A stretch of 64,000 nt of DNA, taken from Formosa algae. GTDB taxonomy: Bacteria; Bacteroidota; Bacteroidia; Flavobacteriales; Flavobacteriaceae. Below, in pieces: positions 448 through 37,954 of this stretch. Every line of letters begins with the position of its first letter. The first letter of the stretch is position 1. Location of the stretch: assembly GCF_001439665.1 (NCBI RefSeq), contig NZ_LMAK01000019.1, positions 1 to 64,000 of the forward strand, in the 5' to 3' direction. The translations under genes were made by a program, and so were the position numbers. The notes under the pieces were generated by a model, which was not told where the DNA came from, searched no databases, and saw nothing but the letters and a program-made list of their open reading frames with translations.

Positions 448-477
448 ATTGATATATTGAATTAATTTGTACATTTG
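448..477 (+). promoter_or_regulatory. Promoter of the arginine operon leader
   Basis: TACATTTG at 470-477 matches the Bacteroidota -7 element TAnnTTTG exactly. ATTG at 448-451 lies 18 bases upstream and fits the -33 element. Transcription would start at about 481-484, at or next to the ATG at 482, so the leader ORF would be translated from a nearly leaderless transcript. Start site inferred, not measured. Confidence 0.5.
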
Positions 478-481
478 ATTT

Positions 482-556
482 ATGATTCTAATTAAAAATA
501 ATATACGTCCATCTAGTCCCGCAATTGCATTGCGCCGACGCCGCAGTGCACACTAA
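482..556 (+). CDS. Arginine leader peptide, 24 codons
   Basis: A short ORF that starts at ATG 482 and stops with TAA at 554-556. Its end reads ALRRRRSAH, with four consecutive arginine codons (CGC CGA CGC CGC, 533-544) and a fifth arginine (CGT) at codon 9. All five are in the CGN box, while AGA is common in neighbouring genes. The ORF explains an otherwise puzzling GC-rich island in an AT-rich intergenic region. The same bases form a 9-bp hairpin (526-550) that a ribosome stalled on the Arg codons would open. Position ahead of the full arginine operon, immediately after a good promoter, supports a role in ribosome-mediated attenuation. Function is inferred; the ORF itself is seen directly. 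Confidence 0.7.
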   Translation: MILIKNNIRPSSPAIALRRRRSAH

Positions 557-574
557 TCTTCTAGAGTTGTTCAC
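526..574 (+). promoter_or_regulatory. Two mutually exclusive hairpins in the arginine leader
   Basis: TGCATTGCG (526-534) pairs with CGCAGTGCA (542-550) around a 7-base loop; one pair is T-G. A second, weaker hairpin joins 546-552 (GTGCACA) to 568-574 (TGTTCAC) with one mismatch. The two share 546-550, so only one can form. The first contains the four Arg codons. A T-rich stretch follows at 586-604. Which form stops transcription cannot be settled by eye. Confidence 0.5.
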
Positions 575-665
575 CTAAATTTCACGTATTTATTTTTTTA
601 TTTTGATTACATCACTTTATACATTTTACACACAACATATAGTTATTTTAAACAATAACCATACT

Positions 666-716
666 ATGTTACGCCCTATTTTATTGCGCCGCCCGTTAGG
701 GTGTTTTATATTTTAG
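666..716 (+). CDS. Second small arginine-containing ORF in the arg leader, 16 codons
   Basis: ATG at 666 opens MLRPILLRRPLGCFIF, stop TAG at 714-716. All three arginines are CGC, the same codon as in the first leader ORF, and both ORFs contain TTGCGCCG. CGCCC-GTTA-GGGTG (690-703) is a small hairpin followed by TTTTATATTTT and so looks like a weak terminator; ACGCCCTA (671-678) can instead pair with TAGGGTGT (697-704). Translating this ORF would open both. It ends 74 bases before the first structural gene. It may be a second sensor or a chance ORF over a terminator. Confidence 0.45.
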   Translation: MLRPILLRRPLGCFIF

Positions 717-790
717 GAACTTTTAGGTGTGTCCAGTTCTACTTCTAGAAATCAATACTTTTTAACTTTTTAATTTTTAAAATCAAAACA
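716..790 (+). promoter_or_regulatory. Distal part of the arg leader with weak alternative hairpins
   Basis: GGAAC (716-720) can pair with GTTCT (736-740), while TTCTA (737-741) can pair with TAGAA (746-750); the two overlap and exclude each other. A very T-rich run follows at 757-777. This has the arrangement of an antiterminator and terminator, but the stems are short and AT-rich. TTTAGGTG (722-729) is also the exact complement of CACCTAAA (572-579). Confidence 0.3.
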
Positions 791-1405: not shown

Positions 1406-2587
1406 ATGAAAAAATTAGTCATAGCATATAGCGGTGGGTTGGACACGTCTTATTGTGCAGTAAGTTTATCAAAAGAATACGACGTTCATGCAGTAAGTGT
1501 AAACACTGGAGGATTTACAAAAGAAGAAATTAAAAATATAGAATCTAATGCCTATAAAATGGGCGTGTCTACATATGTAAATATAGATGCTGTAGCCACA
1601 TTTTATAATAAAGTGGTGAAATATTTAATTTTTGGTAACGTATTAAAAAATAACACATATCCGCTTTCTGTAAGTGCAGAGCGTATTATTCAGGCTATTG
1701 AAATTGTAGAATATGCAAAAAGTATAGGCGCAAAATATATTGCACACGGAAGTACAGGAGCAGGAAACGATCAAGTGCGTTTCGATATGATTTTTCAAAC
1801 CCTTGCTCCAGAAATTGAAATTATTACCCCTATTAGAGATCAAAAATTAGCAAGACAAACAGAAATCGATTACTTAAAAGAAAATGGTATCGATATGTCT
1901 TGGGAAAAATCAAGATATTCTGTGAATAAAGGATTATGGGGAACAAGTGTTGGCGGTGAAGAGACATTAACTTCAGAAAAACCATTACCTAGTGAAGCGT
2001 ATCCATCTCAGTTAGAAAAAACAGACGAGCAAAAAGTAACCTTAACATTTAATAAAGGTGAATTTGTTGCTCTTAATGGAACAGAAGCTGCCCCAGAAAA
2101 AAATATTGAAGCCTTAAATGAAATAGCTTCAAAATATGCCATTGGAAGAGATATTCATGTTGGAGATACTATTGTTGGAATTAAAGGGCGTGTTGGTTTT
2201 GAAGCTGCAGCGGCTTTAATCATCGTAAAAGCACACCATTTATTAGAAAAACATACGCTTACAAAATGGCAAATGCAACACAAAGATTACTTATCTAGTT
2301 TTTATGGTATGCATTTACACGAAGGTCAGTTTTTAGATCCTGTAATGCGCGACATGGAAGCCTTTTTATCAAGTAGTCAAGAAAACGTAACAGGAGATGT
2401 TGTGGTGAGTTTAAAACCATATCACTTCTCTCTAGATGGCATTGTGTCTAAACACGATTTAATGAGTTCTACGTTTGCTAGCTATGGTGAAGAGAATAAA
2501 GGATGGACTGCAGATGACGCCAAAGGATTCATAAAAATACTTGGGAATCAAAACAAGATTTACCAACTCGTAAATAACAAGTCATGA
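1406..2587 (+). CDS. argG: Argininosuccinate synthase
   Basis: 393 residues, close to the usual 400. It joins citrulline and aspartate using ATP to make argininosuccinate, the penultimate step of arginine synthesis. The N-terminal ATP PP-loop AYSGGLDTSYC is at residues 8-18, and HGSTGAGNDQVRF is the conserved citrulline/aspartate-binding block. The gene starts 6 bases after the GNAT gene and its stop overlaps the argC start by four bases (ATGA), which argues for translational coupling. In many bacteria argG sits with argH at the operon end; here it is second, as in other Flavobacteria. Confidence 0.96.
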   Translation: MKKLVIAYSGGLDTSYCAVSLSKEYDVHAVSVNTGGFTKEEIKNIESNAYKMGVSTYVNIDAVATFYNKVVKYLIFGNVLKNNTYPLSVSAERIIQAIEIVEYAKSIGAKYIAHGSTGAGNDQVRFDMIFQTLAPEIEIITPIRDQKLARQTEIDYLKENGIDMSWEKSRYSVNKGLWGTSVGGEETLTSEKPLPSEAYPSQLEKTDEQKVTLTFNKGEFVALNGTEAAPEKNIEALNEIASKYAIGRDIHVGDTIVGIKGRVGFEAAAALIIVKAHHLLEKHTLTKWQMQHKDYLSSFYGMHLHEGQFLDPVMRDMEAFLSSSQENVTGDVVVSLKPYHFSLDGIVSKHDLMSSTFASYGEENKGWTADDAKGFIKILGNQNKIYQLVNNKS

Positions 2588-3561
2588 TACAAGCAGGAAT
2601 TGTAGGAGGAGCAGGATATACTGCAGGAGAACTGATTAGAATACTAATGTATCATCCACAAGTACAAATCGATTTTATCTTTAGTACTTCTAATGCCGGA
2701 AATCCGGTGAGTAAAGTGCACCAAGATTTAATTGGATCTACAGATTTACAATTTACAGATACTATTAATTCAGATGTAGATGTTTTGTTTTTATGTTTAG
2801 GACATGGAAATTCTACAGCATTTTTAGAGAAAAATAGTTTTTCTGATACCACTAAAATCATCGACTTAAGTAATGATTTTAGATTAGAAGCCGATGCTAA
2901 TTTTAATGGTATGGAATTCATTTACGGACTTCCAGAACTTAATAAAGACGCTATTGTAAAAGCTAATTATTTAGCAAATCCTGGATGTTTTGCTACGGCC
3001 ATTCAATTAGCATTATTACCATTAGCTTCAGACGGAAAATTTAATAACGATATTCATATCAACGCGGTAACTGGAGCTACAGGAGCAGGAACCTCATTAT
3101 CTGCTACCACACATTTTACATGGAGAGATAATAATTTTTCATATTACAAGCCATTTACGCATCAGCATTTAGGAGAAATTAATCAATCGGTAAAGCAATT
3201 ACAAAACGATTTTAATTCAGAAATTATTTTTATGCCGAATCGCGGCGATTTTTCACGAGGTATATTTGCCACGGCTTATACTAAATATGAAGGCACTTTA
3301 GAAGACGCCAAAGCACTATATAAATCCTTTTACAAGGATGCTAAATTTACGGTGGTTTCAGATGAAGATATTCATTTAAAACAAGTGGTAAATACTAATA
3401 AATGCATACTTCATTTACATAAACACAACGATAAATTATTAGTCACTAGTGTTATCGATAATTTATTAAAAGGCGCTTCAGGTCAAGCGGTTCAAAACAT
3501 GAATTTAATGTTTGGATTTGAAGAAACTGAAGGTGTACAACTAAAAGCTACTTACTTTTAA
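2584..3561 (+). CDS. argC: N-acyl-gamma-glutamyl-phosphate reductase
   Basis: 325 residues. It reduces the acylglutamyl phosphate made by ArgB to the semialdehyde, using NADPH. The nucleotide-binding motif GGAGYTAGELIRIL is at residues 8-21, and the catalytic cysteine is C135 in NPGCFATA. The start ATG overlaps the argG stop (ATGA). Length and motifs match the family. Whether the substrate is the acetyl or succinyl form follows from the ArgF' discussion and cannot be read from this protein. Confidence 0.95.
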   Translation: MIQAGIVGGAGYTAGELIRILMYHPQVQIDFIFSTSNAGNPVSKVHQDLIGSTDLQFTDTINSDVDVLFLCLGHGNSTAFLEKNSFSDTTKIIDLSNDFRLEADANFNGMEFIYGLPELNKDAIVKANYLANPGCFATAIQLALLPLASDGKFNNDIHINAVTGATGAGTSLSATTHFTWRDNNFSYYKPFTHQHLGEINQSVKQLQNDFNSEIIFMPNRGDFSRGIFATAYTKYEGTLEDAKALYKSFYKDAKFTVVSDEDIHLKQVVNTNKCILHLHKHNDKLLVTSVIDNLLKGASGQAVQNMNLMFGFEETEGVQLKATYF

Positions 3562-3573
3562 TCCATTCGACTT

Positions 3574-4374
3574 ATGAAAATTGCTATCATTGGAACAGGA
3601 AATTTAGGATATTCTATCGCAAAAGGTTTAATTATCGATAATGCGTTTACTACTCTATATTTAACCAAAAGAAATTTAGAATCATTAGAAGAGTTTAATG
3701 GTTATAAAAATGTAACTATAACAAGTGATAATATTGAAGCGGTTCAGAAATCTGATATTTTAATTTTTGCAGTACAACCTGCTCATTTTGAAAAGGTATT
3801 GGAAGAAATTGCATCGCATTTAACAGAGAAACACGTTTTAATATCTACCATTACCGGATTTTTAATTCCTAGAATAGAAAGTCTTGTAGGTGATAATCAA
3901 TTCATTATTCGTGCAATGCCTAATACGGCTATAGCTGTGGGTAAATCAATGACTTGTATTTGTAGTAATACACAAGGTACTAAACGAGTAAAAATAGCAG
4001 AAGCCATATTTAATCGTTTGGGGCATACTTTAATTATTCCTGAAAGTCAGATGCAAGCCGCAACTGTAGTTTGTGCAAGTGGTGTTGCGTTCTGGATGCG
4101 ATTAATTCGTGCCACAACTCAAGCTGCTATTCAATTAGGTTTTGATGCCGAAGAAGCACAAGAATTATCTATGCATACCTGCGAAGGTGCAGCAAGTTTA
4201 CTAATACAGACAGGCAATCATCCCGAAGAAGAAATAGATAAAGTAACCACTCCAAAAGGATGTACTATAGAAGGATTAAACGAAATGGAACACAAAGGTT
4301 TGAGTTCGTCTTTAATACAAGGTATGGTCGCGTCTTACAATAAAATTAGCAACATTAAAAAAGAGCAAATATGA
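3574..4374 (+). CDS. proC: Pyrroline-5-carboxylate reductase
   Basis: 266 residues. The Rossmann motif GTGNLGYSIAKGL opens the protein, and the C-terminal dimer domain has the conserved TTPKGCTIEGL block (about 229-239), near the usual TxPGGxT signature. It reduces pyrroline-5-carboxylate to proline with NAD(P)H. Its place inside the arginine operon, between argC and argD, links proline to glutamate/ornithine metabolism. It overlaps argD by four bases (ATGA). No proA or proB is seen in this window. Confidence 0.93.
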   Translation: MKIAIIGTGNLGYSIAKGLIIDNAFTTLYLTKRNLESLEEFNGYKNVTITSDNIEAVQKSDILIFAVQPAHFEKVLEEIASHLTEKHVLISTITGFLIPRIESLVGDNQFIIRAMPNTAIAVGKSMTCICSNTQGTKRVKIAEAIFNRLGHTLIIPESQMQAATVVCASGVAFWMRLIRATTQAAIQLGFDAEEAQELSMHTCEGAASLLIQTGNHPEEEIDKVTTPKGCTIEGLNEMEHKGLSSSLIQGMVASYNKISNIKKEQI

Positions 4375-5498
4375 GTTTGTTTCCTGTATATCCGCTTTAC
4401 GATATTACTCCCGTAAAAGCGAAAGATGTTTTTGTTTACGATAACAAAGATGTAAAGTATTTAGATCTTTATGGTGGACATGCTGTAATTTCAATTGGAC
4501 ATGCGCATCCTACTTATGTAGATCGTATTACCAGTCAATTACATCAAATTGCTTTTTATAGTAACGCCATTCAGAATCCGTTACAAGAACAATTGGCGAC
4601 AGATTTAGCAGAATTTTCTGGTTGTAAAGACTACCAATTATTTTTATGTAATTCTGGGGCAGAAGCGAACGAAAACGCATTAAAATTAGCGTCTTTCCAT
4701 AACGGAAAATCTAAAATTATAGCCTTTAAAAATAGTTTTCACGGACGTACTTCTGCGGCTGTAGCAGCTACCGATAACCCTAAAATAGTGGCGCCTTTAA
4801 ACGCACAACAAGAGGTAGAATTTTTTGAACTTGGCGATTTAGAAGGGGTAGAACAAGCGTTAAAAAATAACGATGTTTGTGCTGTAATTATCGAGTTTAT
4901 ACAAGGTGTTGGCGGTTTAGATGAAAGTACAACCGAATTTTACCAAGGTCTTGAAAAATTATGTAAAGCAAACAATACCTGTTTCATTGCAGACGAGGTG
5001 CAGTCTGGTTTTGGAAGAACAGGAGATTTCTTTGCATTCCAAAAACATAATATTACACCAGATGTTATTTCTTTAGCAAAAGGAATGGGGAATGGTTTTC
5101 CAATTGGTGGAATTTTAATTCATCCAGATATTAAAGGATCGTTTGGATTATTAGGAACCACGTTTGGCGGAAACCATTTAGCTTGTGCAGCATCTTTAGC
5201 TGTTTTAGATGTCCTTAAAACAGAAAATTTATTAGCACACACTAAAGAAATTTCAGCTTATTTTATTGAAAAAGCAGAACAATTTCCACAAATTAAAACC
5301 ATTAAAGGTCGAGGTTTAATGCTAGGTTTAGAATTCGATTTTCCGATTTCAGACCTTAGAAAAAAACTTATTTTCGACCATCACATATTTACAGGAAGTG
5401 CCAAAAATCCAAATTTATTAAGAATACTTCCGCCATTAACGATTCAAAAAGCACATTTAGATATCTTTTTTGAAGCCTTAAAATCAGAATTAACATAG
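4371..5498 (+). CDS. argD: N-acylornithine aminotransferase
   Basis: 375 residues, class III PLP-dependent aminotransferase. The Schiff-base lysine is K237 in SLAKGMGNGFPIGG; FIADEVQSGFGRTG holds the cofactor-binding Asp and LCNSGAEANENALK is the phosphate-binding region. It converts N-acylglutamate semialdehyde to N-acylornithine. Slightly shorter than the E. coli enzyme (about 405). It overlaps proC by four bases and lies one base before argF'. It could also accept the succinyl substrate. Confidence 0.93.
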   Translation: MSLFPVYPLYDITPVKAKDVFVYDNKDVKYLDLYGGHAVISIGHAHPTYVDRITSQLHQIAFYSNAIQNPLQEQLATDLAEFSGCKDYQLFLCNSGAEANENALKLASFHNGKSKIIAFKNSFHGRTSAAVAATDNPKIVAPLNAQQEVEFFELGDLEGVEQALKNNDVCAVIIEFIQGVGGLDESTTEFYQGLEKLCKANNTCFIADEVQSGFGRTGDFFAFQKHNITPDVISLAKGMGNGFPIGGILIHPDIKGSFGLLGTTFGGNHLACAASLAVLDVLKTENLLAHTKEISAYFIEKAEQFPQIKTIKGRGLMLGLEFDFPISDLRKKLIFDHHIFTGSAKNPNLLRILPPLTIQKAHLDIFFEALKSELT

Positions 5499-5499
5499 C

Positions 5500-6435
5500 A
5501 TGAAAAAATACACGCAAATTTCAGATATTTCAAATCTTTCAGAAACCATTAAAGAAGCGATTCTTTTAAAAATGAATCCTTACGAACATCAACATTTAGG
5601 TAAAAATAAAACCTTAGTGATGTTGTTCTTTAATTCGAGTTTACGGACCCGGTTAAGCACAGAAAAGGCTGCGAAAAATTTAGGAATGGACGTTATGAGT
5701 TTAAACGTTAACGATGCGTGGAATTTAGAGTTTGAAGATGGTACCGTTATGGATGCTAGTACTTCAGAGCATGTAAAAGAAGCTGCTAAAGTAATTTCTC
5801 AATATGCAGATATTATTGCTGTACGTGCTTTTCCGAGTTTAAAAGACAGGGAAAAAGATGCTACAGAAATGGTAATTAAAAGTTTTGAAAAGTACGCAAC
5901 GGTGCCTATTGTAAATATGGAAAGTGCCACGGCACACCCTTTACAAGCCTTGGCAGATGCTATTACAATTTCAGAATTATCTGAGAAATCACGACCAAAG
6001 GTGGTAATGTCTTGGGCGCCACATCCTAGAGCTTTGCCTCAGGCTGTGCCTAATTCTTTTGTTGAGATGATGCAGAAAATGGATGTCGATTTAACCATTA
6101 CACACCCAGAAGGGTATGAGCTTAATCCGGAAATCACAAAAGATACTCCTATTAATTATAATCAGGACGAGGCCTTAAAAGATGCCGATTTTGTATATGC
6201 CAAAAACTGGAGTAGTTATACCGATTATGGAAATGTTATAAGTCGTGATAGAACGTGGATGATTACCAAAGAAAAACTTGGTCACGCTAAATTTATGCAC
6301 TGTTTACCTGTAAGACGAAATGTTATTGTAGAAGATGCCGTATTAGATAGCGATCAATCTATCGTGATGCAAGAAGCGAATAACAGAACGTATGCCGCAC
6401 AGATAGTTATGAAAGGAATACTAGAAAACTTGTAA
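5500..6435 (+). CDS. argF': N-succinylornithine carbamoyltransferase type (ArgF')
   Basis: 311 residues of the transcarbamylase fold: carbamoyl-phosphate motif SSLRTRLST (46-54), HPLQALAD, and MHCLPVRR near the C-terminus. The sequence is of the acetyl/succinyl-ornithine transcarbamylase group known from Xanthomonas and Bacteroides, not classical ornithine transcarbamylase. At the position that separates the two (Glu92 in the acetyl enzyme, Pro90 in the succinyl enzyme, from memory), this protein has Ser89 in DASTSEHVKEA. A non-glutamate residue there favours N-succinylornithine. It carbamoylates the acylated ornithine, so deacylation comes later (ArgE). Alignment was by eye. Confidence 0.88.
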   Translation: MKKYTQISDISNLSETIKEAILLKMNPYEHQHLGKNKTLVMLFFNSSLRTRLSTEKAAKNLGMDVMSLNVNDAWNLEFEDGTVMDASTSEHVKEAAKVISQYADIIAVRAFPSLKDREKDATEMVIKSFEKYATVPIVNMESATAHPLQALADAITISELSEKSRPKVVMSWAPHPRALPQAVPNSFVEMMQKMDVDLTITHPEGYELNPEITKDTPINYNQDEALKDADFVYAKNWSSYTDYGNVISRDRTWMITKEKLGHAKFMHCLPVRRNVIVEDAVLDSDQSIVMQEANNRTYAAQIVMKGILENL

Positions 6436-6436
6436 T

Positions 6437-7213
6437 ATGGAAACATTAAAAGTTATAAAAATTGGGGGAAATATTATTGATGATGATAGTGCGTTATCCC
6501 ATTTTCTAGAACAATTCGCAACCATTCAAGGTCCTAAATTATTAGTGCACGGCGGCGGGAAATTAGCTACTAAAATGGCTAAATCCATGAATATTGAAGT
6601 ACAAATGGTAGATGGAAGACGCATTACAGATGCCGATACTCTTGATATTATTACTATGGTTTATGGCGGAAAAATCAATAAAAATATAATTGCGCAATTA
6701 CAAGCTAATCATTGTAATAGTGTTGGATTTACCGGTGCAGATGGAAACGTAATTGTTTCAGAAAAACGTCCTGTAAAAACGATAGATTACGGATTTGTTG
6801 GCGATGTAAAACAAGTAAATACTAAAGTGCCTAAAGTACTATTAGAAAACGGTATTACGCCCGTGTTTTGCGCGATAACTCATGATGAAAATGGACAGTT
6901 ATTAAATACAAATGCAGATACGGTAACTTCTGAACTGGCTATAGGCTTTGCAGATTTGTATCAAGTCGAGTTGTATTACTGTTTCGAAAAAGACGGGGTA
7001 TTATTAGATGTGGACGATCCGAATTCTGTAATCGAAGATATCAATACCAAAAATTATGAGACTTTAAAAGCAGACGGCGTCATTACAGACGGCATGCTTC
7101 CCAAGTTAGATAACTGTTTTCATGCCATTTCTAATCATGTTTATAAAGTGTGTTTAGGGAAACCAGACATGCTATTTAATCAGAATTCAAAACATACAAC
7201 CATTCAAGCCTAA
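6437..7213 (+). CDS. argB: N-acylglutamate kinase
   Basis: 258 residues, amino-acid kinase family. The N-terminal KIGGNIIDD (8-16) and LVHGGGK are the phosphate-binding glycine loops. It phosphorylates N-acylglutamate, the step before ArgC. The length matches the arginine-insensitive class; the extra N-terminal helix of the arginine-inhibited enzymes is missing, so feedback control is more likely elsewhere (inference). It starts one base after argF' and its stop shares one base with the argE start. Confidence 0.93.
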   Translation: METLKVIKIGGNIIDDDSALSHFLEQFATIQGPKLLVHGGGKLATKMAKSMNIEVQMVDGRRITDADTLDIITMVYGGKINKNIIAQLQANHCNSVGFTGADGNVIVSEKRPVKTIDYGFVGDVKQVNTKVPKVLLENGITPVFCAITHDENGQLLNTNADTVTSELAIGFADLYQVELYYCFEKDGVLLDVDDPNSVIEDINTKNYETLKADGVITDGMLPKLDNCFHAISNHVYKVCLGKPDMLFNQNSKHTTIQA

Positions 7214-8277
7214 TGACAACACAACAATTAACTGAAGAGGCCATATTATTACTTAAGAATTTGATTGAAACCCAATCATTTTCTTCAGAAGAAGATAAAA
7301 CAGCACAGCTTATAGAAGCTTGGTTTATACAGAAAAATATTCCATATACTAGAACCAAAAATAACGTTTGGGCTACAAATGCCGATTTTACAGAAGGCAA
7401 ACCAACACTACTCCTAAACTCACATCACGATACTGTAAAACCCAATAATGGATATACAAAAGATCCGTTAAAAGCAATCGTAGAAGATGGTAAATTATAT
7501 GGTTTAGGAAGTAATGATGCTGGAGGTTGTTTGGTGTCTTTAATAGCAACGTTTACTTATTTTTATAATAAACCAAACTTAAAATACAACTTGGTTTTAG
7601 TTGCATCTGCAGAAGAAGAAAGCAGTGGACCAAATGGTTTAAACAGTATGTTGTCTATAATTCCAAAAATTGATGTCGCTATTGTTGGCGAACCTACATT
7701 AATGAATTTGGCCATTGCAGAAAAAGGATTGGTTGTGTTTGATGCTAAAGTAAAAGGAACACCGAGCCATGCGGCACATCCAAACAATGATAATGCGATT
7801 TATAATACCATTGAAGTTCTAAATTGGTTTAAAGATTATAAGTTTGACAGACCATCAGAATCTTTAGGAGATGTTAAAATGACGGTCTCTCAGATTTCTG
7901 CAGGAAAACAACATAATGCCATTCCAGCGGAAGTCGAATTAGTCATTGATGTACGTGTAAACGATAAATATACCAATGCAGAAATTAACGATATTTTAGT
8001 GAAGGAAGCGCCGTGTACAGAAATTGTGGCACGTAGTTTACGTTTAAATTCATCGTCTATTCCTAAAGACCACGAATTGGTTAAAGCTGGTATTGAAATT
8101 GGACGTACCACTTATGGGTCGCCAACCTTATCAGATCAATCTGTTTTAAGCTGCTCGTCTCTTAAATTAGGACCAGGAGATAGTACACGATCACATTCTG
8201 CAGATGAGTTTATTTATTTAAATGAAATAGAAGAAGGGATTAAAATTTACATCCAATTATTAGAAAAAATACTATAA
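7213..8277 (+). CDS. argE: M20-family deacylase, probable N-acylcitrulline/ornithine deacylase
   Basis: 354 residues of the M20 metallopeptidase family: zinc-binding NSHHDTVKP, GLGSNDAGGC and the EEESSGPNG general-base block are all present. In Bacteroidota with ArgF', this enzyme removes the acetyl or succinyl group after carbamoylation and releases citrulline for ArgG. The TAATG junction (stop TAA and start ATG share a base) couples it to argB. Acyl specificity cannot be read from the sequence. Confidence 0.87.
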   Translation: MTTQQLTEEAILLLKNLIETQSFSSEEDKTAQLIEAWFIQKNIPYTRTKNNVWATNADFTEGKPTLLLNSHHDTVKPNNGYTKDPLKAIVEDGKLYGLGSNDAGGCLVSLIATFTYFYNKPNLKYNLVLVASAEEESSGPNGLNSMLSIIPKIDVAIVGEPTLMNLAIAEKGLVVFDAKVKGTPSHAAHPNNDNAIYNTIEVLNWFKDYKFDRPSESLGDVKMTVSQISAGKQHNAIPAEVELVIDVRVNDKYTNAEINDILVKEAPCTEIVARSLRLNSSSIPKDHELVKAGIEIGRTTYGSPTLSDQSVLSCSSLKLGPGDSTRSHSADEFIYLNEIEEGIKIYIQLLEKIL

Positions 8278-8323
8278 TTATTTAAGCTGATAACTTTCAG
8301 TTTAAACTATAAAAATCTTACTT

Positions 8324-9601
8324 ATGAAACTTTGGGACAAAGGGCTTTCAATAGATAAAAAAATTGAGCAATTTACTGTGGGAAACGACAGAGAAATTGA
8401 TATTCATATTGCGAAGTATGATGTGATTGCTTCTAAAGCACACGCTAAAATGTTAGAGAGCATTAATATTATTACTGCTGAAGAATTGAAACAATTATTA
8501 GGTGGTTTAGATGTATTAGAATCTCAGATAGAAGAGGGTACGTTTGTTATTGAAGAAGATTTTGAAGATGTGCATTCAAAAATAGAATTCGAATTAACGA
8601 AAACTTTAGGCGATGTTGGAAAGAAAATACATACTGCACGTTCTAGAAATGATCAAGTTTTAGTGGCGCTTCAATTGTATTTTAAAGCAGAGTTAAAAAC
8701 AATTCAGGAAAAAACTAAAACGTTTTTCGATACACTAATTGGTTTAGCAGACACGCATAAAGATTCTTTATTACCTGGCTATACGCATTTACAAGTCGCT
8801 ATGCCGTCGTCTTTTGGGGTTTGGTTTTCTGCCTATGCAGAATTATTAATTGATGATGTGTATATGCTACAAGCGGCTCAAAAGGTAGCCGATCAAAATC
8901 CTTTAGGTTCTGCTGCAGGTTATGGAAGTTCATTTCCGATAGATCGTGAATTAACCACAAAAGAAATGGGGTTTTCAACCTTAAAATATAACGTGGTTGC
9001 TGCACAAATGAGTCGAGGTAAAAGTGAACGTACTATTGCTGCTTCACTAGGAAGCTTGGCAAATACACTATCGCGTTTTGCTATGGATATTTGCTTGTAT
9101 AACAGTCAGAATTTTGGTTTTATAGCCTTTCCAGATGAGTTAACTACAGGAAGTAGTATTATGCCACACAAGAAGAATCCGGATGTATTTGAATTGATTC
9201 GAGGAAAATGTAATAAAATCCAAGCGCTACAAACAGAGATGGTTTTAATTACGAATAATTTACCTAGCGGATACCATCGCGACTATCAACTATTAAAAGA
9301 GAATATGATTCAGGCTCTTGAAGACACGAAAGATATTCTAGATATTTTTAATTTTTCTATCGCGCAAGTAAAAGTGAAAGATATCGATTTACACGACGAT
9401 AAATATAAGTTCTTATTTACTGTAGATAATATAAATACTTTAGTGGTAGAAGGCATGTCGTTTAGAGATGCGTATAAAAAGATTGGTGGCGAAGTAGAAG
9501 CAGGTACATATGTACCAGACGATTCTAAAAAACATACCCATTTAGGAAGTATTCACAATTTAGGATTAGATAAAATAAGTGAAAAGTTTCCGAAAATTTA
9601 G
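8324..9601 (+). CDS. argH: Argininosuccinate lyase
   Basis: 425 residues, fumarase/aspartase superfamily. The signature GSSIMPHKKNPDVFELIRG is present, as are HTARSRNDQV and GYTHLQVAMP. It splits argininosuccinate to arginine and fumarate, the last step of the pathway. The C-terminus is shorter than in E. coli ArgH (457), as is common in this group. It is last in the operon, 46 bases after argE, and is followed by a strong hairpin terminator. Confidence 0.96.
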   Translation: MKLWDKGLSIDKKIEQFTVGNDREIDIHIAKYDVIASKAHAKMLESINIITAEELKQLLGGLDVLESQIEEGTFVIEEDFEDVHSKIEFELTKTLGDVGKKIHTARSRNDQVLVALQLYFKAELKTIQEKTKTFFDTLIGLADTHKDSLLPGYTHLQVAMPSSFGVWFSAYAELLIDDVYMLQAAQKVADQNPLGSAAGYGSSFPIDRELTTKEMGFSTLKYNVVAAQMSRGKSERTIAASLGSLANTLSRFAMDICLYNSQNFGFIAFPDELTTGSSIMPHKKNPDVFELIRGKCNKIQALQTEMVLITNNLPSGYHRDYQLLKENMIQALEDTKDILDIFNFSIAQVKVKDIDLHDDKYKFLFTVDNINTLVVEGMSFRDAYKKIGGEVEAGTYVPDDSKKHTHLGSIHNLGLDKISEKFPKI

Positions 9602-15760: not shown

Positions 15761-15853
15761 AATGTTTTTTTATAAAAATGTCTTAAATAATTTGGAAAAT
15801 CGACTTTTCTAACTGAATATTTGTGCTCACAAAGTTCAATAACGTATTGAAAT

Positions 15854-15973
15854 GTTATCAAGAAAGGTGGAGGGATTAGACCCGCTGAAACCTTAGCAAC
15901 CCTTTAACTTATAAAGAAGGTGCTACATTCTACTTAAAAACCGATTCATTTATCGGCGATTTAGATAGATAAC
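15854..15973 (+). ncRNA. SAM-I (S-box) riboswitch before metY
   Basis: P1 is GTTATC (15854-15859) with GATAAC (15968-15973). Between them are the conserved SAM-I blocks: AAGGTGGAGGGA, then CCGCTGAAACCTTAGCAACC, then AAGAAGGTGCTACATTC. This order and wording match the S-box aptamer, which binds S-adenosylmethionine and lowers downstream expression. It precedes metY and the homoserine/methionine genes. Confidence 0.95.
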
Positions 15974-15979
15974 TAAAGG

Positions 15980-16097: not shown

Positions 16098-17381
16098 ATG
16101 AGTACACAAAAATTCGCAACTCAAGCGTTGCATGCAGGACACGATGTTACAAAAAATGGAGGAACACGTGCCGTACCAATTTACCAAACATCATCTTACG
16201 TTTTTAACGATTCAGATCATGCTGCAAATTTATTCGCCTTAGCAGAACCAGGTTACATTTATACCCGTTTAAATAATCCAACTAACGATGTATTGGAACA
16301 ACGTTTAGCGGCTATAGAAGGTGGTATTGCCGCTGTAGTTACGGCTTCTGGAACAGCAGCTATTTCTACTACATTGTTAACACTTTTAAAAGCAGGAGAC
16401 CATATTGTAGCATCAAGTAGTTTGTATGGGGGGACCTATAATTTATTGGCCGTTACCTTACCAAGACACGGCATTACAACCACGTTTGTAGACCCTTCAG
16501 ATGCAGCAAATTTTCAGGCTGCAGTTCAAGATAATACACGAGCTGTGTTTATTGAATCTTTAGGAAATCCGAAGTTAGATGTTTTAGATATTGAAGCGAT
16601 TGCTAATGTATCTAAAGCCAACGATATTCCTTTAATTGTCGATAATACAGTAGCTTCTCCAGCCTTATTAAATCCTATTCAATACGGAGCTAATCTTGTG
16701 ATTCACTCGCTAACAAAATACATTAACGGAAACGGAACCAGTTTAGGTGGGGTTATTGTGGATGCTGGAACATTTAATTGGGCAAACGGAAAATTCCCTG
16801 AATTTACAGAACCATCCGCAGGATATCACGGTTTAATATATAGTGACGTTTTAAAAGAAGCGGCGTTTATTGCTAAAGTTAGAATTGAAGGTTTAAGAGA
16901 TTATGGTAGTGCGTTAAGTCCGTTTAATGCGTTTCAAATCATTCAAGGTTTAGAAACTTTAGAACTACGTATTAAAAAACACAGTGAAAATGCTTTAGCT
17001 CTAGCACAATGGTTAGAGACTCAAGACGAAATTGCTTGGGTAAATTATCCTGGTTTAGAAAGTAGTAAGTATAAAACTTTAGCAGATAAATACCTTCCTA
17101 AAGGACAAAGCGGAATGGTTACTTTTGGACATAAAGGTGGTTTTGATGCTGCAAAAATTATAGCCGATAAAACTCAAATATTTTCACTTTTAGCCAATAT
17201 TGGAGACACTAAATCTTTAATCATTCATCCATCAAGTACAACCCACCAACAGTTAGATGAAGCCGCGCAAGCCGCATCTGGTGTAACGACCGATTTGGTA
17301 CGTTTGTCTGTTGGAATTGAAGATCTTGAAGATTTGAAATCTGATTTAAAACAAGCCTTTGAAGCTGTTAAAAACGCCTAA
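16098..17381 (+). CDS. metY: O-acetylhomoserine sulfhydrylase
   Basis: 427 residues from ATG 16098; the frame is open further upstream but that part lies over the riboswitch terminator, and MSTQKFATQALHAGHD is the expected N-terminus. PLP-dependent Cys/Met metabolism family; the cofactor lysine is in HSLTKYINGNG. Length and the long insertion typical of the O-acetylhomoserine enzymes (about 425-430 residues) fit MetY/Met17. It makes homocysteine from O-acetylhomoserine and sulfide. First gene behind the SAM riboswitch, 52 bases before the fusion gene that supplies its substrate. Confidence 0.92.
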   Translation: MSTQKFATQALHAGHDVTKNGGTRAVPIYQTSSYVFNDSDHAANLFALAEPGYIYTRLNNPTNDVLEQRLAAIEGGIAAVVTASGTAAISTTLLTLLKAGDHIVASSSLYGGTYNLLAVTLPRHGITTTFVDPSDAANFQAAVQDNTRAVFIESLGNPKLDVLDIEAIANVSKANDIPLIVDNTVASPALLNPIQYGANLVIHSLTKYINGNGTSLGGVIVDAGTFNWANGKFPEFTEPSAGYHGLIYSDVLKEAAFIAKVRIEGLRDYGSALSPFNAFQIIQGLETLELRIKKHSENALALAQWLETQDEIAWVNYPGLESSKYKTLADKYLPKGQSGMVTFGHKGGFDAAKIIADKTQIFSLLANIGDTKSLIIHPSSTTHQQLDEAAQAASGVTTDLVRLSVGIEDLEDLKSDLKQAFEAVKNA

Positions 17382-28900: not shown

Positions 28901-28979
28901 CATAATAATTGCTGTAAATATGAGGGAATTATAAAATTATTACCTTTATTTGCAGCATAGTTCATAAACATAATAATTC

Positions 28980-29093
28980 GTTATCACGAAAGGCAGAGGG
29001 GATAGACCCGGTGAAGCCTTAGCAACCCTTTACCACACTTAAAGAAGGTGCTACATTCTACTCAATGAAACCATTTTCAAAGGGGCAGATAAC
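28980..29093 (+). ncRNA. SAM-I (S-box) riboswitch before metH
   Basis: P1 GTTATC (28980-28985) pairs with GATAAC (29088-29093). Core blocks: GAAAGGCAGAGGGGATAGAC, GGTGAAGCCTTAGCAACCC and AAAGAAGGTGCTACATTC, nearly the same as the metY riboswitch. No T-tract hairpin follows in the 52 bases before the start codon; AAAGGGG at the 3' side of the aptamer can pair with CCCTTT at 29112-29117, so control of translation is possible. Confidence 0.95.
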
Positions 29094-29145
29094 CCAAGAG
29101 AAATCCCTTTCTTTCCTGATGACATACTGATATAAAACATCAAAA

Positions 29146-36992: not shown

Positions 36993-37070
36993 ATGCAAAA
37001 TACAAATTTCACATATTTTAACTTTTTCTATTTCTTTTTCAGCAGAAGAAACGAGGCATTGTATGTGTAA
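36993..37070 (+). CDS. Phe/Tyr leader peptide of the aromatic operon, 25 codons
   Basis: ATG 36993 to TAA 37068-37070. The peptide includes NFTYFNFFYFFFS: seven Phe and three Tyr codons among 25, with both TTT and TTC used. It is followed by a hairpin terminator just before pheA. This is the layout of classical PheL-type leader peptides in enteric bacteria, in which ribosome stalling for lack of charged tRNA-Phe prevents termination. Not related in sequence to known PheL. Seen directly; mechanism inferred. Confidence 0.82.
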   Translation: MQNTNFTYFNFFYFFFSRRNEALYV

Positions 37071-37101
37071 TTTATAAACATAAATTTAATATAAAGTCTC
37101 G
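37052..37101 (+). promoter_or_regulatory. Candidate antiterminator pairing in the phe leader
   Basis: CGAGGC (37052-37057, codons 20-22 of the leader ORF) is complementary to GTCTCG (37096-37101), with one G-T pair. GTCTCG is the 5' arm of the terminator. A ribosome waiting at the Phe codons leaves CGAGGC free; one at the stop codon covers it. That predicts read-through in Phe starvation and termination in Phe excess. Confidence 0.6.
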
Positions 37102-37124
37102 ATGTAAATCGGGACTTTTTTTTT
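37093..37124 (+). terminator. Attenuator terminator directly before pheA
   Basis: AAAGTCTCGAT (37093-37103) pairs over 11 bases (one T-G) with ATCGGGACTTT (37108-37118), loop GTAA, and the T tract 37116-37124 has nine Ts. It ends two bases before the pheA ATG. A terminator here, inside the operon leader, makes sense only as an attenuator. Confidence 0.85.
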
Positions 37125-37126
37125 AT

Positions 37127-37954
37127 ATGATAAAAACAGTTTCAATCCAAGGGATAAAGGGGTCATTCCATCACATTGTTGCCAAAACATATTTTGATGA
37201 CAGTGTTGAAATTGATGAGTGCATGTCTTTCGATAAGTTAGTAGATAACCTTATTAGTAAAAAGAGTGATGTAGCGGTTATGGCATTAGAGAATTCTATA
37301 GCGGGTTCAATTTTACCTAATTATGCTTTAATAGATAAATTTAATCTGCATATAATTGGAGAACACTATTTAGATATTCAGCATAATTTAATGGCTTATC
37401 CAGGTCAGACTATTGCAGATATTAAAGAAGTTTATTCTCATCCTATGGCATTATTACAATGTAAGGAGTTCTTTAAAAAACACCCGCATATTAAACTTAT
37501 AGAAGATAAAGATACTGCCGAAACTGCAGAGCGTATCAATATAAATAAGTTAAAAGGTGTTGCTGCTGTTGCAAGTAAAATTGCTGCTGAGATTTTTGAT
37601 TTAGATATTTTAGCTGCAAGTATACAGACGATTAAAGACAATGAAACCCGTTTTGTAATTGTAAAAACACAAAATTCTGTAATAGATGAAAGTGAGATTA
37701 CAAAAGCATCTTTAAGGTTTGAATTAGAACACAAGCGCGGAAGTTTAGCAAGCGTGCTAAATGTATTAAGCGATTGCAGAATGAGTTTAACAAAAATTCA
37801 ATCTTTACCAAAAATTGAAACACCTTGGAAATATGCTTTTTTTGTAGATGTTACCTTTGTAAAGTATACAAATTTTAAAAAAGCAAAAGCCATTTTAGAT
37901 ATCATGGCCAAAGAATTTAAAGTACTTGGCGAATATAAAAACGCAAAATTATGA
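37127..37954 (+). CDS. pheA: Prephenate dehydratase
   Basis: 275 residues. The dehydratase domain contains ALENSIAGSI and the catalytic Thr-Arg-Phe in DNETRFVIV (about 183-191). A C-terminal ACT domain starts near SLRFELEHKRGSLASVL, as in the phenylalanine-inhibited enzymes. It converts prephenate to phenylpyruvate. Not fused to chorismate mutase (which is on the last gene of the operon). Start ATG follows the T tract of the attenuator, so there is no purine-rich ribosome site. Confidence 0.93.
   Translation: MIKTVSIQGIKGSFHHIVAKTYFDDSVEIDECMSFDKLVDNLISKKSDVAVMALENSIAGSILPNYALIDKFNLHIIGEHYLDIQHNLMAYPGQTIADIKEVYSHPMALLQCKEFFKKHPHIKLIEDKDTAETAERININKLKGVAAVASKIAAEIFDLDILAASIQTIKDNETRFVIVKTQNSVIDESEITKASLRFELEHKRGSLASVLNVLSDCRMSLTKIQSLPKIETPWKYAFFVDVTFVKYTNFKKAKAILDIMAKEFKVLGEYKNAKL

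Follow-up and report, generated by a model that had tools for sequence, protein, structure and literature searches.

A candidate arginine-sensing leader with arginine-codon ORFs and a conserved pair of hairpins upstream of the arginine operon of many Flavobacteriaceae

The arginine operon and its leader

The forward strand of the window (the whole stretch of 64,000 nucleotides of Formosa algae DNA that was analysed) carries an arginine operon of nine genes, headed by a GNAT acetyltransferase gene (791–1399; Pfam PF00583) that presumably fills the role of argA; a search of this gene against NCBIfam at 1e-10 returned no match. The operon continues with argG, argC, proC, argD, the N-acetylornithine carbamoyltransferase gene, argB, an ArgE/DapE-type deacylase gene, and argH (1406–9601, forward strand), each named after its best NCBIfam match, of which those of argG, argD, and the deacylase score under the NCBIfam curated cut-off. 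A leader of 361 nt with two short open reading frames, ORF1 and ORF2, precedes the operon. The C-terminal part of an aldehyde dehydrogenase (31–429; Pfam Aldedh) ends 52 nt upstream of ORF1. The GNAT protein of the first gene is 95% identical to that of Formosa sp. L2A11, the closest named relative among the matches listed. The named-locus set used for comparison comprises the best 80 of at least 568 matches of this protein, close relatives included, and the genus-level set consists of the upstream stretches of all 98 genomes that carry the GNAT gene at 1e-40 in a family draw of 149 Flavobacteriaceae genomes from 148 genera; one of these stretches is short (L178).

ORF1 (482–556, forward strand) would encode the leader peptide MILIKNNIRPSSPAIALRRRRSAH and contains, at 533–544, the four consecutive Arg codons CGC CGA CGC CGC, located where an earlier note on this DNA had claimed them; relatives retain Arg at this place with altered codons. 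The box TACATTTG (470–477, forward strand), which has the form of the TAnnTTTG sigma-A -7 box, lies 4 nt from ATG482. Of 81 sequences, the 80 named loci and the window, 70 yielded ORF1. With the longest ATG start taken and no preference given to a box, 48 of 68 loci have a TAnnTTT that starts 12 nt upstream of the ORF1 ATG, and every other offset from 8 to 33 is found in at most four; by the same rule, the offset at the genus level is 12 in 23 of 39 ORF1 leaders and 13 in 8 of 39. An earlier count of 53 of 70 named loci at offset 12 favoured starts with a promoter-like box. Since the box-to-ATG spacing is the same in most of these loci, ORF1 is probably leaderless, with the promoter box placing the predicted transcription start at or beside ATG482. 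The accessible part of a study on F. psychrophilum gives TAnnTTTG as the promoter consensus and puts leaderless mRNAs at only 5.5% of the mapped mRNAs (PMC9723704).

A tentative pairing, P0, joins early ORF1 codons (AAAAATAATATACGT, 494–508, forward strand; swap test) to a U-rich stretch directly before the ORF2 start (ACGTATTTATTTTTTT, 584–599, forward strand; fold and swap test). Among 70 named loci, the cognate arms pair at a mean of -12.4 kcal/mol versus -8.8 kcal/mol for non-cognate arms, and 41 of 70 beat 95% of the swaps. The signal is weaker at the genus level, with -12.6 versus -10.5 kcal/mol and 9 of 39 leaders beating 95%, where control segments give 4 of 39 and 7 of 39. P0 pairing, for which this is modest support, could let the translation of ORF1 control ORF2.

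ORF2 (603–716, forward strand) would encode a second leader peptide of 37 codons, MITSLYTFYTQHIVILNNNHTMLRPILLRRPLGCFIF, whose start is probably TTG603, because many relatives have ATG, GTG, or TTG thereabouts in alignment rows judged by eye. The earlier note had this ORF begin at 666; the inner frame 666–716, which reads MLRPILLRRPLGCFIF, is present with its Arg codons, and the start at that position gives way to TTG603 as the probable true one. The control codons CGC CGC followed by CCG (687–695, forward strand), which read Arg-Arg-Pro (RRP), lie near the ORF2 end, and the CGC CC at 690–694 is the 5′ arm of the hairpin P2. ORF2 ends in RP or RRP in 75 leaders, with Arg at codon -2 in all 75 (CGC in 74) and at codon -3 in 70 (CGT in 55, CGC in 14, and CGA in one), and the positions farther upstream vary widely. 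An exact TAnnTTTG box occurs 9–21 nt before the ORF2 ATG in 16 of the 49 leaders that contain ORF2 only, 15 of the 16 at offset 15, and these leaders are probably nearly leaderless as well. A further hairpin inside ORF2, P1 (GTTATT-TTAAAC-AATAAC, 642–659, forward strand), was seen by eye in the alignment in many relatives.

Conservation and codon use of the arginine-codon ORFs

In 93 of the 98 genus-level leaders, three or more of the last 14 codons of a short ORF are Arg codons; the same scan is positive for 5 of 98 reverse-complemented and 21 of 294 shuffled sequences. The ORF that it reports is sometimes ORF1 and sometimes ORF2, depending on the genome, and the five leaders that fail it are G254, G230, G002, G245, and G262. 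The Arg codons vary synonymously and the remaining codons of the ORFs drift. Loss of the Arg run in relatives had been named beforehand as an outcome that would overturn the idea; the opposite was observed, the run being retained amid drifting neighbours in these 93 leaders. The Arg-codon leader ORFs are thus confirmed as a real observation, far above chance. By position, in counts that depend on how ORF lengths and positions were delimited and on a motif close to where ORF2 ends, both ORFs occur in 44 of the 98 leaders, ORF2 alone in 49, ORF1 alone in three, and neither in two (G002 and G262), which places ORF2 in 93 and ORF1 in 47, or in 39 if an ATG start is required. Most of the 80 named loci carry both ORFs, one with a terminal Arg run and the other with a terminal RRP. 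As in attenuators, the leader ORFs of the 98 leaders are enriched in codons for the product of the pathway, and they sit between a promoter box, recognised by sequence only, and an operon of the matching pathway.

All eight Arg codons in the two ORFs of the window are CGN, as the earlier note had stated when it suggested that a single tRNA-Arg could be sensed. That suggestion holds as a strong bias across the leaders, in which 377 of 397 Arg codons are CGN, versus 384 of 608 in a background that is drawn from the genes of the window only and set against leaders from 98 genera. It does not hold as a strict rule: AGA and AGG are also present, e.g., in ORF1 of Lacinutrix/Olleya (CGC AGA CGA CGT CGC), and AGA is found in the ORF1 runs of several genera. 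Part of the CGN and CGC bias, moreover, is not a matter of tRNA sensing, since P2 pairing itself favours CGC. The comparison strongly supports the reading that the leader ORFs would report the level of charged tRNA-Arg to the arginine operon.

The P2/P3 module and its association with the operon

The end of ORF2 leads into an RNA module on the forward strand, which consists of the hairpin P2 (CGCCC-GUUA-GGGUG, 690–703), a U-rich spacer recognised by its length and base composition (704–715), and the hairpin P3 (716–740), in which a stem, an unpaired A (more bases in the window), and GG:CC pairs carry the pentaloop UGNGU; both hairpins are predicted from covariation and folding. The last Arg codon and the Pro codon of ORF2 form the 5′ arm of P2, and control codons overlap a hairpin here in the manner of an attenuator; a ribosome at this place would prevent P2 from forming.

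Covariation was assessed in A4, a model-fitted alignment of 94 of the 98 leaders (without L148, L217, L228, and L231), whose counts lean towards the fitted structure. In P2, 93.3% of the cells are paired and changes on both sides are seen at two of five pairs, with CGCAC/GUGCG in G293 and G201 as compensatory changes. In the basal stem of P3, 98.0% of the cells are paired and both-side changes occur at all six stem pairs; at the apex, they occur at one of two pairs, where GC is replaced by AU in four of the 94 leaders and by UA in one. The P3 loop reads TGAGT in 62 of the 94, TGTGT in 19, and TGCGT in six, and the spacer, 59.5% T and 6.2% G, measures 12 or 13 nt in 78. For the module as a whole, 96.4% of the cells of A4 pair versus 87.4% in shuffles, both-side changes amount to 99 cells versus 23.3, and the covariation exceeds all 500 shuffles on all five measures. 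A3, in which 29 chosen rows were aligned without structure and given a structure by hand, rows with a shifted P3 arm being omitted, contains 15 both-side-change cells, a number reached by none of 500 shuffles, and a number of pair types that was reached by 36 of 500. These alignments replaced the use of RNAalifold on MAFFT alignments, in which the stems were misaligned and little structure and no covariation term were obtained. A pairing offered by RNAalifold between GGUG of the P3 loop and CGCC of P2 is invariant and hence no evidence in either direction.

The predicted best fold of the segment contains P2 in 78 of the 94 leaders, being without it in 16, and contains P3 in 78 of the 94. Since four P2/P3 segments fold hardly better than their own shuffles (z -0.3 to -1.7), the evidence for P2 and P3 is their covariation rather than their folding energy; the entire leader of the window folds somewhat better than its shuffles (z -2.7). 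The P3 core GGTGNGTCC is present in 79 of 81 sequences (the named loci and the window) and absent from L047 and L067. L047, from a Flaviramulus MAG and on the same contig as G329, represents a natural deletion, in which ORF1 and its Arg run are kept and P2 and P3 are lost. The possibility that the P3 loop serves as a complement of the 16S rRNA tail, given that AGGUGNGUCC resembles AGGUGAUCC, was rejected: compensatory GA:UC in G289, G240, and L092, and GU:AC in G323, break the match and keep the stem. When compared with Rfam, the leader of the window had no match at the gathering score and two chance-level matches below it (E 1.4 and 4.9), and eight related loci showed no leader family.

By comparison among relatives, P3 is the best conserved part of the leader, and P2 together with P3 the best supported structure, rather than hairpins of ORF1. 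The earlier proposal of an Arg-codon attenuator therefore divides in two: its sensor half is strongly supported by the comparison, and its output half has to be moved from the ORF1 hairpins to P2 and P3. Its account of the leader architecture placed the ORFs where they lie here, apart from the ORF2 start, and overlooked both P2 and P3 as well as how precisely the promoter is spaced.

The module is closely tied to the arginine operon. The R1 model finds one clear match in the genome of the window (E 3.5e-13), the next best standing at E 0.07, and at 1e-3 it matches 91 of the 149 family genomes, with one match each. The match lies on the same strand as the GNAT gene and 36–241 nt (median 45) upstream of it in 90 of these 91 genomes; in the remaining one, G277, the GNAT gene was not found. 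Eight genomes have the GNAT gene and no R1 match at 1e-3, four of which (L146, L153, L223, and L230) match at E 0.01 in a smaller leader search. Weak R1 matches elsewhere, at 20 loci taken with their next ORF (L083–L085 and L098–L114), were rejected as candidates, and none of them is such an element before another operon. In the window's own genome, GGTGNGTCC occurs at 17 sites, the other 16 of which are all inside long open frames. Additionally, the ArgR domain was detected in none of the 149 Flavobacteriaceae genomes by a search that was positive in 8 of 14 controls, a Bacteroides among them.

Beyond the family, a sample of the order Flavobacteriales contained argG in 72 of 148 genomes, and 30 loci were scanned for Arg-rich short ORFs. 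Such ORFs were found upstream of argG in the families f2 (L268, L269, and L271), f3 (L273), f7 (L275), f9 (L270, L272, and L274), and f15 (L276), by a scan that had no shuffle control, gave obvious strays (e.g., L253), and missed the leader of L253, which belongs to Flavobacteriaceae and has a strong R1 match. The scan found no Arg-rich leader ORF in eight loci of genus g2 (L260–L267), probably Flavobacterium, nor in L277 and L278. The g2 loci have argG with a gene of roughly GNAT size upstream, and arginine control in this genus may differ or be lost. A P3-like hairpin with the loop UACGU rather than UGNGU is part of the predicted fold of the f2 loci L268 and L271 and of the f7 locus L275; it can be drawn by eye in L269, whose best fold is without it. 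These few loci suggest that the Arg sensor may predate P3 in its UGNGU form.

Proposed control of the operon and comparison with known systems

We consider it likely that the leader is a ribosome-mediated arginine sensor, in which stalling on the Arg codons would block P2 and switch the operon on. Transcription would start at or next to ATG482, with ribosomes loading directly on ORF1 and others on ORF2. When Arg-tRNA is plentiful, ribosomes would complete ORF2 and depart, the Arg-Arg-Pro codons would fold into P2, and P2, together with the U-rich spacer and P3 behind it, would lower operon expression. Under a shortage of charged tRNA-Arg, ribosomes would halt at the Arg run near the end of ORF2; a halted ribosome would cover both arms of P2, P2 would not form, and the operon would be read. 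P2 would thus be the mark of arginine plenty, and a missing P2 that of arginine shortage. ORF1, which about half of the leaders contain, could act as a second, upstream Arg-codon sensor and may control access to ORF2 via P0. Comparison across genomes supplies the conserved Arg-codon ORFs, the promoter spacing, P2 and P3, the tie to the operon, and the lack of a detected ArgR on which this proposal builds; translation, stalling, and the direction of control we infer.

As for the output, a terminator-like site at P2 was counted in 29 of the 98 leaders, including that of the window, whereas the other 69 showed none there, the count being made by eye at an energy threshold of -7 kcal/mol with each leader shuffled once; a site anywhere in the leader was found in 43 of 98, versus 19 of 98 when shuffled. 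P2 resembles a weak terminator in the window and in some relatives, e.g., G328. Masking of the start codon was rejected as an output, the predicted accessibility being unchanged at 0.491 versus 0.495 with P2 cut off (88 leaders), and pairing of P3 with the gene start was considered by eye in a few species. The earlier note had further proposed that the hairpins at the Arg codons would exclude one another; an upstream alternative partner for the 3′ arm of P2, hinted at by the fold of L189, was sought in vain, the pairing reaching -4.7 kcal/mol versus -4.9 kcal/mol in shuffled sequences, with 8 of 94 leaders beating 95%. At chances that we put a little below even, the leader is an undescribed RNA in which Arg-codon ORFs, in about half of the leaders a series of two with the first leaderless, drive a novel type of output through P2, spacer, and P3 without a consensus terminator or start masking; P2, spacer, and P3 may then act via RNA polymerase, Rho, or a bound factor. 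If this is true, an undescribed P2/P3 leader would stand in for ArgR in controlling arginine in Flavobacteriaceae.

It is also quite possible, although clearly short of an even chance, that the same sensor has Rho-dependent termination or RNA decay as its output, and not intrinsic termination at P2. Such an output would be in keeping with the G-poor stretch from P3 to the ATG (6.5% G and 14.9% C in 88 leaders, compared with 11.5% and 13.1% in 31 control upstream stretches from one genome), with the lack, by eye, of a strong U-run directly after P3 in 79 leaders, and with the Salmonella speF leader orf34, whose two Arg codons act via Rho and RNase G in the accessible part of PMC6386406. However, the G-poverty is modest and would suit Rho weakly, and the 29 leaders that are terminator-like at P2, G328 among them, point the other way.

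An arrest peptide is unlikely; in this case, free arginine or ornithine would be bound by a nascent chain with RRP before its stop, and the ribosome would be held up as it terminates. Sensors of this kind exist, since TnaC stalls with tryptophan and SpeFL with ornithine, and the Pro-stop end that slows termination in TnaC has its likeness in the RP or RRP that stands right before the stop in 75 leaders. Nevertheless, the peptides diverge except for their Arg codons, the stop is not conserved (Tenacibaculum, Polaribacter, and Formosa continue as RPLG...), ORF1 ends are of the RRRR or RRRF type and not RRP, and the conserved feature is the number of Arg residues rather than a peptide motif. Even less probable is that arginine is sensed by P2/P3 itself, as a riboswitch or a protein-binding RNA, and that ORF2 has its Arg codons because CGUCGCCC is conserved for other reasons. 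The UGNGU loop and the GG:CC of P3, both nearly invariant, and the almost constant length of the spacer would suit such an RNA; the Arg run of ORF1 more than 100 nt upstream of P2/P3, the synonymous change in the Arg codons upstream of P2, the presence in other families of Arg-rich short ORFs alongside a P3-like hairpin whose stem and loop differ, and the persistence of ORF1 in L047 although P2/P3 is lost all argue against it. Finally, a chance GC-rich patch that reads as Arg, as GC-rich codons do in many frames, has a negligible probability and is refuted by conservation, given 93 of 98 leaders versus 5 of 98 and 21 of 294 controls, and the covariation.

The favoured reading, a ribosome-mediated arginine sensor, is best compared with the ribosome-mediated attenuators of the trp, his, phe, leu, and thr leaders of Proteobacteria. 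The likeness lies in a promoter-proximal short ORF whose consecutive control codons specify the end product, a biosynthesis operon behind it, and hairpins beside the control codons. Unlike these attenuators, the arg leader senses arginine, has two ORFs in series in 44 of 98 cases, starts in a near-leaderless manner, adds the conserved hairpin P3, and in most cases has no detected terminator-like site. An attenuator of the textbook form is present in the same window, where a Phe-run leader peptide, MQNTNFTYFNFFYFFFSRRNEALYV, and a strong intrinsic terminator (36993–37126) are followed by a prephenate dehydratase gene (37127–37954; Pfam PDT): a Phe-codon attenuator before pheA. Both leaders encode amino-acid-run peptides, a point in favour of the arginine sensor; however, the pheA leader has a textbook intrinsic terminator, an example of a genuine one in this window, which most arg leaders seemingly do without. 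The window also contains two SAM riboswitches (RF00162), at 15852–15975 and 28978–29095, upstream of the genes at 16098 and 29146.

The meaning of such a leader would extend beyond this operon. The lack of a detected ArgR in 149 Flavobacteriaceae genomes raises the question of how arginine synthesis is controlled there, to which the leader offers a testable answer, and arginine would join the amino acids that are made under the control of codon-reading leaders. Furthermore, a covarying RNA without an Rfam match is gained from Bacteroidota, a phylum in which ribosomes make little use of Shine-Dalgarno sequences. An RNA already described from this phylum, Bacteroid-trp, carries Trp codons.

Among the matches listed from the open-access literature, which is short of most subscription papers, there was no codon-reading leader of bacterial arginine biosynthesis, Bacteroidota included; the accessible parts of PMC4833913 and PMC8632094 do not show the arg leader element. 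Bacteroid-trp (RF01692) and the GUCCY-hairpin, the latter without an Rfam number, are tabulated in the accessible part of PMC2864571, the only open-access paper in which the GUCCY-hairpin was found. Bacteroid-trp is, like the arg leader, a structured leader element of Bacteroidetes, but it is concerned with tryptophan, and the arg leader has no Rfam match; P3 mostly has G or A after GUCC, and not the Y of the GUCCY-hairpin. Within the same family, the available text on the F. psychrophilum transcriptome reports clues for leader-peptide attenuation at amino-acid biosynthesis operons (PMC9723704), with the operons not named there, and the eight g2 loci of the present study are without an Arg leader. 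Leader-peptide-like sORFs are also mentioned for B. thetaiotaomicron in the accessible part of PMC7366714.

Further parallels in sensing come from other phyla. In the Salmonella speF leader, as far as the accessible text of PMC6386406 goes, two consecutive Arg codons of orf34 likewise sense the arginine supply and change the mRNA structure, but orf34 belongs to polyamine synthesis and to gamma-proteobacteria, has a HIRRT core, and acts with RNase G and Rho. By eye, the conserved HIRRT core of SpeFL/orf34, which precedes an ornithine decarboxylase gene, is absent from the arg leader peptides, whose operon serves arginine synthesis. The S. aureus leader peptide rbfL also reports arginine shortage through Arg codons according to the accessible part of PMC13009471; it differs in its rare AGA/AGG codons, in that pausing blocks a downstream start, and in its target, a biofilm regulator. 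The sensing principle is thus known, and what is new is the amino acid and its pathway, the frequent double near-leaderless ORFs, the P2/P3 output, and an RNA that is new to Rfam.
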